Assembly (NCBI GenBank): GCA_003599865.1
Contig: QZKS01000039.1
Coordinates: 1 to 33,545 of the forward strand
Direction: 5' to 3'
Length of the DNA: 33,545 nucleotides
Source: Desulfobacteraceae bacterium
GTDB taxonomy: Bacteria; Desulfobacterota; Desulfobacteria; Desulfobacterales; SURF-7
Positions 1-7,483 of this stretch are shown one piece after another. Under the pieces are notes generated by a model. It searched no databases and was not told where the DNA came from. It was given only the letters and a program-made list of their open reading frames with translations. The position numbers were made by a program, and so were the translations under genes. Every line of letters begins with the position of its first letter. Within the stretch, counting starts at the first letter, position 1.

Positions 1-3000
1 TGGGCGAATCCGAGATGATCGGAATCACAATAATGCTCCTGTCGTCTTTCCGGCCTCTTCCAATATAGACGTTTCCCTGACGGACAATGATCCGTTTGGT
101 TCCCTTTAACCGGTTATCTGTTTCAATTCTTGACGGAATCGGCTTCAACACACCATCCTTGCGCAATACCGTTATTGTGGTTTTGTCCGTGGCTTCTCCC
201 AGCAGACTCAGGTTGTCTATTTTATACAAAATCGAGCCTTTGATCTCCGAAACGATCCCCTGCAGATTTTTGAGAACAATGACGTTGCGGTTGATCAGCC
301 TGGATACATTGATCTCATGGGCTGCAAGGGCATCGAACAGGATACCTTCGACCTTTTCACTGATTCTGCTGGTTCCGACCGTAACGGTCTTGGCCTGATG
401 TTTGATCGCATCGACCGGCCTTGCCATGCAGTTGATTGCCTCTCCCAGACAATGGAAAAAATCGTTCAGCATGTTCAGGGCGGTTCCCTTTTTACCAAAA
501 TCAAGCTCAAAATCGGAAACCGGCAACTTTCCGGTCAGATATTTCAACAGCAGTGTCAGATCGGATGCGGTGGTCAGTCCCAAAATGCCCGGGAATCGGT
601 TTTCGGATTTTTTCTGCCGGAATTCACTGTAAAAGGAGGCCACTTTTTCCTTAAAACTTTTCTCCAGTACAACCTCATACACATCCATTCCTTTGCCGGA
701 CGATGCATCGATATTCTGTTTGATTTCCTCCCTGGCCTGATGCAGGAACCGTGAACCGTCGTTGATGGCCAGCGCTGCGTAATACCCCCAGATATGACCC
801 ACCAGCGTATTCAGGATAGGGGCAAGATGTTCCGGGATGGCCGGTACATGAAAAACATCCTCGGCATAGGGTGCGAAGCGCTCTTCCCCTTCATCGGCAA
901 TCACGATGGGTGAAGCTTTGTGAGCCTTGAAAATGGCCGTATCTTTCACAATATCCCCGATCACATTTCCCCGGGTTCCCGCAGCGCATACAATGATCAG
1001 CGGTTCGGATGACAGGTCGATATGCTTCTTATCCTCCACAAAATCGGATGAAATGGTCTTGTAGCAAAGTTCGCTGAGTTTGATCCGGATCTCATCCGCT
1101 GATGCCTTGTTCGGTCCGCTTCCCACAGCCGCCCAGTAAGTCTTGGTGGTTGCCAGCCTTCTGGCGGAATCACCGATCTTACCCTTTTGTTCCAGAACCG
1201 TTTTCATGGCACCCGGCAAGTCCAGAAGCTGCCTGATTTCATGGGAAATAAAATTTTGATTGCGGCTTCCCTTCAATTTGACAAAAAACAGACCCAGCAG
1301 GGCTCCGGCAACGATCTGGGAATAAAACGCCTTGGTTGAGGCAACCGACATCTCGATATCCCGTCCGCTGCTGGTATACAGGACGCCGTCCACCTTGAAG
1401 GTGATGTGCGAATCCCGCCTGTTCACAATGGCAAGGGTAAGCCCTCCCCGCTCCCGAACCATGTCCACCGCGCGGTTGGTGTCGGTTGTAGTCCCGGACT
1501 GACTGATGGCAATCACCAGACTGTCTTCCATGGTCCGGCCCTGATCCAGCGCTGACAGCTTGAAGCCGGACAGTTCGGATGCCTTTAATGCGGAAATGAA
1601 CAATCCCGGATCATCCAGGTAGTAATCCAGGATATTGGCACATGCCTGTGCGGCAACGCCGGCAGTGCCCTGTCCCACAAAAAAGATTCTCCGGATACGA
1701 TTCTGCGTCCAGGCTTCGCGCACGCGCAGGGGCATGACCTTCTCGTCAAGGACAACCTCCAGGTTCCGATCATCCGTTTTGTCGATCTTCCATCGGTTTT
1801 GCAGCGTTTTTTCGACGGATACGGGCGCTTCCGAAATCTCCTTCAAAAAATAATGGGGAAATCCCTGCCGGTCGATATCCCGTGAGGTAATTTCCGTATG
1901 TTTGATATCATTCTCTGTAAGGGTTATGGGTGTTCCGTCATAATACAAAGCCTCTATCCCGGCAAGACCGCCTGAAGATTCCTGATCCAGGATGAAAATC
2001 TGCCCCTGGGTCCGGCCATTTTTCCCTTCTGCAATCTTTTCACCATCCATTTTCAGAAAAAAGGAAGTCTCTTCGACAAATCCGTAAACTTCGGATGTGG
2101 GCATATAATGTTCCGGGCCGATTCCGATAAAAACAGCCTGACCGCTCCCTTTCTGCGCCAGAAATATTTTTCCCGGAGCCAGATCCGTATGCATGGAGAT
2201 GGCATGAGAACCATGAAAATCATTGACGGCAAGACGGAATGCTTCCTGAATCGAATTGCCGGTCCTGAAGTATTTTTCAATCCGGATGGGAATAATCTTT
2301 GTATCCGTGGTGATTTCCCTGCTGATTTTCCCGCCTGTTCTCTCGTAATCCTCTTTCAGCTCCCGGTAATTGTCAATGTCCCCGTTCAGACAGATATGAA
2401 TCGTATGGCTTTGAGAAGAAAAGGCATCCATTGTCTTACTGTCTACCGGATGGCAGTTGGGCTGCGTGATTTCTCCCACAGATGCCCATCGGGTATGAGA
2501 GGTCACGGTATAATGAATGTTGTCAAGGCCGGTCACCAGACGCAGAACCGGATCATTTTCAATCTGTTCCCGCAAGTACCGGATATTGTCTCCCAGTGCG
2601 CCGATTTCTGCGGCAACCTTATAGACCATGGTAATGGCAATATGCTTGCCGCTCTTCTGCCCGGACAGATCATTGATGCTGATTCCCTGATTGACCAATG
2701 CATCCTGGTTCATCCGTGTGGCGATCATGTCTGCCAGCCGATGCTGATCCGCCATCTGGTTGAAACGGGAATAATCATCTCCGGAAAGCATAAACATCAG
2801 TGAAAGTCCGGCGGAATCCCTCCCGCGGACTTCAAGCCGGTCAATGCTGTTGAGCACTGCATTGATCTGTCGATACATCATAATGGTTTTCGGCGGAACG
2901 GTTCCCTCTACATTCTTCAAAAGGTCCTCCACCTTCCTGATATTATCGATCAGTTCCATCCGCAGGCACCAGTCAATGTCTTTCAGGTTTTCAATTCTCC

Positions 3001-3514
3001 TTGCGACAATCTCCGATTCAGCGGTATTCAGATACCCCATATTTTTTTTAAAGAATTCCGTCTCCGATTGCACGATCTTCCGCAGTGCGGACGAAATATC
3101 GGCAAGTTGGGTCTGGCATTTCCGATCCAGAAATATCCGGGCAAAATTCTCTCCTGTCTTCATTTCCTGGGATTGTTTTTTGATCTTTTCGATCAATTCA
3201 TCTCCGCCAAGGCAATTTTCATTAAAACATTGCTTCCGGGATGTCTTCCCCTTCAATGTATTTTCTTCAATGGTTCGGATCATGGCACTGATCCCGGCCA
3301 GGTCGACCGGCTTTTGTTTTGCATCACTTTTTTTAAAGCCGACGATACCGGCAAGCCCGCAGGCCAGACTTGTGGCCTGAACCGGAAACAGGACAACGGA
3401 ATCATCCGGCACCGTGCCAATGGATTTTCCGAAATATAACCGATATGACAAAAGATGATGGATGCGTTTATATATTTTATTATAAAATGACATTATATTG
3501 GAAAAAGTAATCAT
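1..3514 (-). CDS. Extended GlmS-like protein: glutaminase-like domain plus two SIS domains (partial, C-terminus off window)
   Basis: The frame is open for 1171 codons from an ATG at 3514 and runs off the left edge, so the protein is about twice the usual GlmS length (about 610 residues). The visible order is an N-terminal stretch with ACGLAGIVGF at residues 51-60, a mostly charged insertion of about 150 residues, then GlmS-type glutaminase motifs (RLEVRGRDSAG near 226-236, HTRWA, LNG, TTDT). A first SIS domain follows (GQGTAG, SQSGTTTDT, VASTKAF), then a second SIS domain and several hundred further residues I do not recognise. GlmS makes glucosamine-6-phosphate from fructose-6-phosphate and glutamine. 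The arginine, Asn-Gly and Asp of the glutamine site are kept, but the nucleophile Cys is either internal (Cys52) or replaced by Ala55, so activity is uncertain. The gene lies 51 bp after kdnB and may be co-transcribed. AAGGA sits directly against the ATG, so the start is uncertain. Confidence 0.85.
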   Translation of the reverse strand, partial: MITFSNIMSFYNKIYKRIHHLLSYRLYFGKSIGTVPDDSVVLFPVQATSLACGLAGIVGFKKSDAKQKPVDLAGISAMIRTIEENTLKGKTSRKQCFNENCLGGDELIEKIKKQSQEMKTGENFARIFLDRKCQTQLADISSALRKIVQSETEFFKKNMGYLNTAESEIVARRIENLKDIDWCLRMELIDNIRKVEDLLKNVEGTVPPKTIMMYRQINAVLNSIDRLEVRGRDSAGLSLMFMLSGDDYSRFNQMADQHRLADMIATRMNQDALVNQGISINDLSGQKSGKHIAITMVYKVAAEIGALGDNIRYLREQIENDPVLRLVTGLDNIHYTVTSHTRWASVGEITQPNCHPVDSKTMDAFSSQSHTIHICLNGDIDNYRELKEDYERTGGKISREITTDTKIIPIRIEKYFRTGNSIQEAFRLAVNDFHGSHAISMHTDLAPGKIFLAQKGSGQAVFIGIGPEHYMPTSEVYGFVEETSFFLKMDGEKIAEGKNGRTQGQIFILDQESSGGLAGIEALYYDGTPITLTENDIKHTEITSRDIDRQGFPHYFLKEISEAPVSVEKTLQNRWKIDKTDDRNLEVVLDEKVMPLRVREAWTQNRIRRIFFVGQGTAGVAAQACANILDYYLDDPGLFISALKASELSGFKLSALDQGRTMEDSLVIAISQSGTTTDTNRAVDMVRERGGLTLAIVNRRDSHITFKVDGVLYTSSGRDIEMSVASTKAFYSQIVAGALLGLFFVKLKGSRNQNFISHEIRQLLDLPGAMKTVLEQKGKIGDSARRLATTKTYWAAVGSGPNKASADEIRIKLSELCYKTISSDFVEDKKHIDLSSEPLIIVCAAGTRGNVIGDIVKDTAIFKAHKASPIVIADEGEERFAPYAEDVFHVPAIPEHLAPILNTLVGHIWGYYAALAINDGSRFLHQAREEIKQNIDASSGKGMDVYEVVLEKSFKEKVASFYSEFRQKKSENRFPGILGLTTASDLTLLLKYLTGKLPVSDFELDFGKKGTALNMLNDFFHCLGEAINCMARPVDAIKHQAKTVTVGTSRISEKVEGILFDALAAHEINVSRLINRNVIVLKNLQGIVSEIKGSILYKIDNLSLLGEATDKTTITVLRKDGVLKPIPSRIETDNRLKGTKRIIVRQGNVYIGRGRKDDRSIIVIPIISDSP

Positions 3515-3565: not shown

Positions 3566-5828
<2,263 letters not shown>

Positions 5829-5995: not shown

Positions 5996-7483
5996 TCAAA
6001 CCGTCTTGTCTTTTTTCCCTTTGCTCGTGTTTCGGGTATGCATTTCACGCTGTTCTTTGTCAAAGAGATGCTGAAAATATTGTTTGATGGCTGATCGTGC
6101 ATAGTAGGTCGATCTTTTCCCGATGTACTTTTCGTGGGCCACAACAACGGAAACCACCAGCTGTTCCGTACCCTTTTTCTCCTGTGCAAATCCGACAAAC
6201 CAGTCATATCGGACATTGGCGATCTCACGGCTTCCAATGGAACCTGTTTTCCCGCCGATCTCCAGCCTTGAAAGAATCTTGTCCCGGCCGGCTCCGCGAA
6301 AGGCCTTGCGGCTGGTTCCGTTCCGAACGGTAGCACACATCATTTCATAGACCGCTTTTGAAGCTCCGGCAGTTGCCACATAACTGATGATCCTCGGCTC
6401 ATTGGTGTAAACGATTTCCCCGTTTTCATTCCGTATCCGCTCGATGATTGTCGGCTCAACCAAACCGCCGTTGTTGACAATGGCTGCACTGATCAGCGCA
6501 CCATGAAGGGGCGTCATGACGGTTTCACGATTAAATCCGCTGGCGACCTCCGCCCATTGATAGGACCTGTCGGTTACATTCAACTGACTGGAGGACATGG
6601 GCAACTCAAAATCAATGGCACGGTTAAAACCGAAACTCTCCGCATAATCAACAAGGGCATCCCTGCCCAGATAATTTGCACCGATCTTTCCAAATACAGG
6701 ATTCACAGACTGGGCAAAAGAGTCCTGAAAGCTGATCTGATGCGTATAGCGGTTTTTTTGATCCTTGAGCTGTGATTTGTAAAGGGTGTGCTTTCCCCCA
6801 TTGAAGTCAAACCGCGATCCGGTGCTGAATCCGCATTTCTCGATTCCGGCTACTGCCGTTACAATTTTAAAAATACTGGCTGCCGGAAAGAGTCCTTCGG
6901 TACATGGGTTTTTTTTCGCTCCGGTCCTGTCAAACCCGGATAATGCATGAATTTTCCCTGTTTTGGGATCCATGAGAACAATCCCGATATTCCGTGCATA
7001 TTTTGTATCCAGCCGATCGGTCAGGAATTGCTGAAGGGAGGGGTCCAGGGTAGTTTCGACAAGGTAAGCGCGGTTATCCACATGAACGGTGAAACTGGTG
7101 CGGTCAAGCCCCAGAAGGTCGACATCTCCGATATATCCCTGCACGTCCTTTTTGGTAAGGAGAGCGGATTCTTCCTGTTCCGGCTTTTCTTTCGGGCTGT
7201 TGGACAGGATAACGGATGTTGCGAAAATCTGTTGGCAGGCGGTTCCGCTAAAACCGACTGCCAATCCATAAATCATGATGCTCAGGAGTGTTAATCCTGA
7301 GGAATATTTCAATATGGAACTTCTCAGTTTTCTGCTTGCATTTTTCCGCTGAAGGATAGACTGGTATTTTTTCCAGCTTTCTCCTGTCCGAATTGATCTG
7401 TTCATTCTATTCGGCATGTTGTTAATCGTTTTGGTTTCCTGTTGTGGATCTGAATCGTGTAAACCAGGTTTTGCCTGAAACAT
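5996..7483 (-). CDS. Penicillin-binding protein, transpeptidase domain only
   Basis: This 495-residue protein has a positively charged cytoplasmic tail of about 55 residues, one membrane segment near 60-80, a short linker and a penicillin-binding transpeptidase domain from about 160 to the end. The catalytic motifs are intact: SIFK (Ser203, Lys206), SVN (259-261) and KTG (412-414). It should crosslink peptidoglycan stem peptides in the periplasm and bind beta-lactams. It lacks the large N-terminal dimerisation domain of FtsI or PBP2 and any glycosyltransferase domain, so it is a minimal transpeptidase resembling the C-terminal half of class B enzymes. The true partner is unknown. ATG 7483 has no clear ribosome binding site, and a start at Met23 or Met27 is possible without affecting the membrane anchor. 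The gene stands alone, with 167 bp to kdnA and 144 bp to metG. Confidence 0.88.
   Translation of the reverse strand: MFQAKPGLHDSDPQQETKTINNMPNRMNRSIRTGESWKKYQSILQRKNASRKLRSSILKYSSGLTLLSIMIYGLAVGFSGTACQQIFATSVILSNSPKEKPEQEESALLTKKDVQGYIGDVDLLGLDRTSFTVHVDNRAYLVETTLDPSLQQFLTDRLDTKYARNIGIVLMDPKTGKIHALSGFDRTGAKKNPCTEGLFPAASIFKIVTAVAGIEKCGFSTGSRFDFNGGKHTLYKSQLKDQKNRYTHQISFQDSFAQSVNPVFGKIGANYLGRDALVDYAESFGFNRAIDFELPMSSSQLNVTDRSYQWAEVASGFNRETVMTPLHGALISAAIVNNGGLVEPTIIERIRNENGEIVYTNEPRIISYVATAGASKAVYEMMCATVRNGTSRKAFRGAGRDKILSRLEIGGKTGSIGSREIANVRYDWFVGFAQEKKGTEQLVVSVVVAHEKYIGKRSTYYARSAIKQYFQHLFDKEQREMHTRNTSKGKKDKTV

Follow-up and report, generated by a model that had tools for sequence, protein, structure and literature searches.

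A Divergent, Double-Length Protein of Probable GlmS Type with a Putative Removable Leader in a Desulfobacteraceae Bacterium

This text deals with a long reading frame at one end of a 33,545-nucleotide stretch of DNA (the window) from a Desulfobacteraceae bacterium (assembly GCA_003599865.1, contig QZKS01000039.1). In all likelihood, the frame encodes a divergent, double-length enzyme of the GlmS type that is activated by loss of a leader and has replaced canonical GlmS in its lineage, a group of sulfate-reducer-type bacteria. Homology, residue conservation, the fold of a structure model, near mutual exclusivity with the canonical enzyme, and gene context all point this way, and we infer the cleavage, the activity, the substrate, and what the extra parts do. 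In its usual form GlmS is conserved, has about 600 residues, and stands at the entry to the amino sugars of the cell wall and lipopolysaccharide. Given its model score, its substrate-site changes, and its different build, the protein is filed here as a GlmS-type variant outside the curated TIGR01135 family.

The proposed course of events is as follows. A precursor would be made with a 51-residue leader, whose removal, whether by self-cleavage or through a protease, would free Cys52. This residue would then hydrolyze glutamine, and the ammonia would pass on to an isomerase site built from two SIS domains. There, K812, E815, H831, and a relocated Lys1042 would act like their Escherichia coli counterparts in converting fructose-6-phosphate to glucosamine-6-phosphate.

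The reading frame, its parts, and its catalytic residues

Window and contig C53 share their first base (the assembly has 5.0 Mb in 100 contigs). On the minus strand, the long frame occupies 3514 to 2; it covers 1171 codons and is still open where the contig ends. Its parts are the following:

2..3514, minus strand: long GlmS reading frame, residues 1–1171 of 1249; the final 78 are encoded on contig C62, reached through a 99-base identical C53/C62 overlap
3362..3514, minus strand: leader (putative propeptide), residues 1–51, with Pro at −8 (in 101/112 long forms) and constrained codons
3359..3361, minus strand: Cys52, candidate N-terminal nucleophile of the mature glutaminase, from alignments
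2870..3328, minus strand: 153-residue insertion (63–215) in the glutaminase domain, predicted helical, from alignment and model
1835..2869, minus strand: remaining glutaminase domain (R230, R342, W343, N377, G378, D404), with a further insertion at about 257–318
770..1702, minus strand: two SIS (isomerase) domains with T617, Q672, S673, T676, K812, E815, and H831
419..769, minus strand: inserted residues (92 + 21) that separate the catalytic tail from the last SIS helix, from alignment
368..406, minus strand: relocated catalytic tail IKHQAKTVTVGTS with Lys1042 (E. coli Lys603); AKTVTVG in 96/96 rows
2..355, minus strand: first part of the C-terminal domain, which has about 200 residues in all and ends with the 78 on C62; no match among PDB sequences, weak and scattered ones in Pfam

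A preliminary description, made from the letters of the window, had reported a frame of over 1170 codons with a glutaminase and two SIS domains. Matches to Pfam, GlmS models, and solved GlmS structures bear this out. The frame is real but not whole: the contig start truncates it, and contig C62, which begins with 99 bases identical to the C53 end, completes a protein of 1249 amino acids followed by a stop. In the window frame, the SIS matches exceed the Pfam cut-off, and both Pfam glutaminase models fall just under theirs. The PurF model TIGR01134 reaches 18.6 bits and covers residues 337–443 only.

The search for long homologs that the preliminary description had proposed found the long form in 56 of 59 near genomes (own genome included), and the frame is therefore not a chance one. 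Two sets of relatives are used below. The first is an alignment of 96 rows, namely the joined window protein and 95 distinct frames of more than 1050 amino acids, left after identical and shorter ones were removed from 109 rows. The second consists of the best 80 of 134 related loci, of which those with names are mostly labeled Desulfobacterales, Desulfobacteraceae, or Deltaproteobacteria; nearly all are metagenome bins with loose species names. "The order" means the order of the window genome throughout. Since a contig end cuts the gene, a chimera or frameshift made during assembly might be suspected. We give this explanation practically no credence, because the homologs refute it: long frames in many other genomes, most of about 1130–1300 residues, show the same order of parts. 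One of the near genomes (G022, contig C371, 289–3596) carries the long gene as two overlapping frames, by frameshift or assembly error.

The catalytic cysteine was the main point of the preliminary description, which read an alanine in its place and considered either propeptide removal or a loss of glutaminase activity. This was an error of register. The class-II glutaminase motif C-G-[IL]-x-G is present as C52-G-L-A-G, and the stretch AGIVGF, taken for the start of the mature protein, begins three residues past the cysteine. Cys occupies this column in 93 of the 96 rows (window included), and the remaining three are truncated before it, giving 93/93 of the rows that reach the column. The alignment thus rules out a lost catalytic cysteine.

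The other functional positions were mapped by aligning E. coli GlmS (L172) with 58 long rows; the catalytic and substrate-contact roles of its residues are those known from the GlmS literature. C1 of the E. coli enzyme corresponds to C52, which is the same in 55/58 rows (the other three are truncated). In the glutaminase domain R26 (R230), R73 (R342), W74 (W343), N98 (N377), G99 (G378), and D123 (D404) are identical in 58/58, and H86 (H355) is the same in all rows reaching its column. On the isomerase side, all rows reaching the position agree at G301 (G616), T302 (T617), Q348 (Q672), S349 (S673), T352 (T676), V399 (V724), and S401 (S726); K485 (K812), E488 (E815), and H504 (H831) are kept in 58/58. 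The tail positions A602 (A1041), K603 (K1042), V605, T606, and V607 are likewise the same wherever a row reaches them. In the larger alignment, 96/96 rows are identical at R230, R342, W343, N377, G378, D404, T617, K812, E815, H831, and K1042.

Not everything in the core agrees with E. coli GlmS, and these differences weigh against our reading. Identity over the core is 27.8% across 579 positions (E. coli GlmS against the canonical GlmS of genome G016: 49.6%), and TIGR01135, the NCBIfam GlmS model, scores the window frame at 236.3 bits, missing its cut-off of 418.05. Among the 58 rows, T76 has become Ser in all, and H77 is Val in 47, Asn in 5, Met in 3, and Ile in 3. C300 is replaced by Gln (49) or His (9) and S303 by Ala (58); S347 is Ser in 39 and Thr in 19, S604 is Thr in 58, and E608 is not retained. 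Several positions that contact the substrate in the E. coli enzyme thus differ. One could read the low score, together with the changes at T76, H77, C300, and S303, as marks of a glutaminase-dead paralog serving as a sugar-phosphate isomerase or regulator, as the preliminary description had suggested. We consider this highly improbable: C1, R26, R73, W74, H86, N98, G99, and D123 are kept, no other GlmS was found in the genome, and a canonical GlmS coexists with the long form in only 1 of the 50 long-form genomes sampled. The alignment and structure comparison proposed at the time come out in favor of GlmS as far as the catalytic residues and a match to the GlmS fold go; T76 and H77 are not kept.

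The double length comes from insertions, listed here against E. coli GlmS at a threshold of eight residues or more. The largest internal one, which the preliminary description had put at roughly 150 residues, measures 153 (63–215) and begins at residue 63, after the first strand of the glutaminase domain. Others follow at 257 (49 residues), 309 (10), 357 (10), 491 (12), 582 (9), 916 (92), and 1012 (21), and 196 residues are added at the C-terminus from 1054. The leader counts as a 50-residue insertion, with residue 51 aligned to the Met of E. coli.

An initial HMMER alignment ended at residue 916, as though Lys603 were lost. The tail was located 113 inserted residues further on: residues 1037–1047 (IKHQAKTVTVG) align to the GlmS catalytic tail PRNLAKSVTVE, making Lys1042 the counterpart of Lys603, with about 200 residues still to follow. 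The "long unrecognized C-terminus" of the preliminary description is thus recognizable in part. The C-terminal part found no PDB sequence up to E 1, its matches to Pfam were weak and scattered (best E 0.0061, the commonest in 4/62 members), and a search of plasmids with the C-terminal region of L086 found none. A role in regulation or in binding a partner is probable for both the helical insertion and the C-terminal domain.

Structure models agree with this layout. The structure alignments comprised 73, 66, and 62 rows. For L086, a close relative, the mature protein (1199 amino acids, 73 aligned sequences) was modeled with a predicted local distance difference test score (pLDDT) of 83.6 and a predicted template modeling score of 0.72. 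In a Foldseek search with this model, the first 31 rows consisted entirely of GlmS from E. coli and GFAT from humans. VIA-align placed it on E. coli GlmS 1jxa_A with Z 42.8 and a root-mean-square deviation (rmsd) of 6.1. This match takes in 597 of the 608 residues, pairs 1..995 of the model with 1..605 of the chain, and shares its rank with further GlmS/GFAT rows; an isomerase domain alone gave Z 43.2 and rmsd 2.1. By the 1jxa_A alignment, the first catalytic element and the last come to lie together, give or take one or two residues. The VIA rows cover model residues 1–997 only and barely test the fold of the C-terminal domain. A model of the precursor glutaminase domain (564 amino acids, pLDDT 85.3) matched 1xff_B with Z 26.7 and rmsd 1.8 over 230 residues (model 216..548). 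It shows the insertion as long helices and the leader as a helix with two short strands, with low confidence around the cleavage point. Two features of the models tell on the other side: residues 991–1004 of the L086 model, which bear the tail, have pLDDT <50, and the 1xff_B match begins at model residue 216, so that the strand carrying the cysteine lies outside it.

The leader and the start of the mature protein

The N-terminus can be read in 112 long forms, of which 93, counting the window, belong to the order's set and 19 to loci L149–L167. They fall into two classes that do not overlap. The first, with 101 members, carries a leader with Pro at −8 relative to the cysteine, and a start codon at −1 was sought and found in none of them; the −1 codon in the window is GCC. 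The second, leaderless class (11 of 112) lacks Pro at −8 and has ATG (10) or GTG (1) directly before Cys. Where leader-bearing forms were scanned for starts, a start codon lay at least 31 codons upstream of Cys in 100 of 100.

Five close sequences, compared as ten pairs, gave ratios of nonsynonymous to synonymous change (pN/pS, as uncorrected proportions) of 0.19–0.55 for leader codons −26 to −1 and 0.22–0.84 for the codons before these. In these five sequences, the final 26 codons of the leader are thus constrained at the protein level. The leader would accordingly be translated and would have to be removed to expose the cysteine.

The obvious competitor is a misplaced start, with translation beginning from or beside Cys52 and nothing to remove. 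The 11 long forms that begin with Met or GTG before Cys, just as canonical GlmS does, lend it some color. It may also draw on the 38 of 100 leader-bearing forms in which a start codon occurs no more than 12 codons before Cys (none at −1), a count that tells against leader removal. We nonetheless hold it very unlikely in view of the 0/101 start codons at −1, the Pro at −8 in all these forms, and the constraint on the last 26 codons. The preliminary description had named PurF-like propeptide removal as one way out. Such removal is probable, with a conserved leader motif in 101/112 members, constraint on the leader as protein in the five close sequences, and Met- or GTG-Cys starts in the other 11.

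How the two classes arose can be read in more than one way. On a FastTree phylogeny with some weak nodes, the branch beside the root has five members (L160–L164), each of the start-codon-Cys type, and more such forms appear at four other places (L110 with L028, L042 with L045, L073, and L158). A single gain with several losses and a loss on the root branch as well both stand. In L042 only a few bases separate the Met from the frame before it, too few for a leader to fit in.

Distribution and gene neighborhood

In the window genome the long gene is the sole match with both GlmS halves (227 bits against the cut-off of 418). The next TIGR01135 match (116 bits) is a 482-residue frame covering the glutaminase half only, as PurF would, and others are weaker; this search found no canonical GlmS there, while the same model was over its cut-off in 14/14 control genomes. 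The glmM gene of the window genome is over its cut-off at 562 bits. Among the 59 near genomes, 57 match the long protein, but the match in G016 is its canonical GlmS, the only canonical gene of the set and one without a long form beside it. In several near genomes (among them G009, G011, G018, G030, and G049) the long form is partial or split at contig ends.

In a phylum sample of 395 genomes (own included), 50 have the long form, 311 have canonical GlmS over the cut-off, and 1 has both (Fisher p 2e-38 for near mutual exclusivity, the species being related and not independent). In the other 49 long-form genomes the best GlmS match is no better than 1e-73, and G135 has none at 1e-45. Canonical genes were sought among the three best candidates per genome and long forms by a C-terminal profile among up to five, and forms without that end would therefore be missed. 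Genus g32 is divided: G034 and G423 carry the long form alone, and a canonical gene (571 bits) is all that G404 has. Replacement in place was considered for G404 and rejected, as its canonical gene sits in a different neighborhood, without the order's metG or iron-containing alcohol dehydrogenase (Fe-ADH) genes.

A few genomes do not fit. G031 and G051 (97 and 98% complete) yielded neither long nor canonical GlmS, and a nearly complete genome can therefore lack both; G240 holds both forms (L165, L175, L177); and G241 has a weak GlmS match (4.7e-50) with no long C-terminus found. These cases count against a clean replacement. Most sampled members of the order, and parts of other families in the phylum, seem to use the double-length form.

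The neighbors of the long gene depend on where one looks. In the 80 related loci, counts refer to the fetched stretch, and nine loci are under 5 kb. There metG lies near the long gene in 50, an Fe-ADH gene in 21, a DegT aminotransferase gene in 16, and both of the last two in 15. In the window, the Fe-ADH and DegT genes stand side by side at 3566–5828 on the minus strand, directly upstream of the long glmS; we presume a resemblance to the KdnB/KdnA pair of the Kdo8N pathway, and no family model confirmed it. At 5996–7483 (minus strand) is a penicillin-binding-protein-like gene of 495 amino acids, below curated cut-offs, which occurs near the long glmS in 43/80 loci.

Neighbors of this kind, together with the substrate-site changes, could indicate a related amidotransferase making another amino sugar, for example for lipopolysaccharide, with the help of DegT and Fe-ADH. 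This seems to us very unlikely. DegT and Fe-ADH, like metG and the penicillin-binding-protein-like gene, were found in 0 of the 19 long-form loci outside the order, the near exclusivity with canonical GlmS points elsewhere, and in other families glmM and a GlmU-like gene lie nearby. Outside the order, a GlmU-acetyltransferase-like gene accompanies the long gene in the fetched stretch in 11/19 loci and glmM in 4/19; in L159 all three are arranged head to tail, in L155 divergently. By inference, gene context thus ties the long GlmS to the synthesis of uridine diphosphate–N-acetylglucosamine (UDP-GlcNAc).

This tie has its own weak spots. Six GlmU-like neighbors that were scanned reached at best 35–57 bits each with GlmU models, far below the cut-offs. 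Of five compared with Pfam, four were without a match at E 0.001, and the fifth matched a hexapeptide repeat at a score under the cut-off. Within the order, neither glmM nor the GlmU-like gene was found in any of the 80 loci, the nine short ones included.

GlmU itself appears to be split in the window genome (L173, 602–3200, and L174, on contigs C5 and C3). A 416-amino-acid GlmU-acetyltransferase-like frame adjoins glmM, and a separate 258-residue frame matches the uridylyltransferase half only. Bifunctional GlmU is over its cut-off in 4/50 long-form genomes (G129, G159, G365, G383) versus 195/395 overall, and three more (G135, G190, and G161) have matches between 4.8e-102 and 1.2e-104 or at 5.6e-101. 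As bifunctional GlmU is also missing in 154/345 other genomes, and its model is over the cut-off in only 9/14 controls, the long form and GlmU loss show an association only.

Relation to known enzymes and significance

With canonical GlmS/GFAT (TIGR01135; E. coli 1jxa, 2j6h) the long form shares domain order, catalytic residues, and the tail AK(S/T)VTV. It differs in the leader before Cys, the 153-residue helical insertion and smaller ones, the 113 residues before the tail and about 200 after it, and some changed substrate-contact positions; the canonical enzyme ends at the catalytic tail after about 600 residues, whereas the long form has 1249. PurF and the large subunit of glutamate synthase have a class-II glutaminase in common with it, and in both, propeptide removal exposes the Cys. 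These enzymes carry a phosphoribosyltransferase or synthase part where the long form has two SIS domains. NagB-II/SIS-only phosphosugar isomerases also possess two SIS domains (8fdb_A, Z 32.5, 320 residues, rmsd 2.7) but are without the glutaminase domain that the long form has (the 1xff_B match). In the part of the literature covered, no paper was, judged by its title and the opening of its abstract, concerned with a long or propeptide-bearing GlmS.

A bolder proposal, which we put forward tentatively and regard as doubtful, concerns control. The leader might be a maturation switch, and the helical insertion and C-terminal domain might form a new regulatory or channeling module, through which the making of glucosamine-6-phosphate would be coupled to a UDP-GlcNAc pathway in split form (a separate uridylyltransferase, GlmU-acetyltransferase-like proteins, and glmM). 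A whole order would then possess a rebuilt and differently controlled entry enzyme for the synthesis of wall precursors.

The finding also has more immediate consequences. Because the long form stays under the curated GlmS cut-off, the step may be listed as missing, or misnamed, in automatic annotation. The relocated catalytic lysine offers a test of how the tail functions away from the C-terminus. Finally, since the family has both leader-bearing members and leaderless ones, with a start codon directly before Cys, propeptide activation of a GlmS is directly testable.

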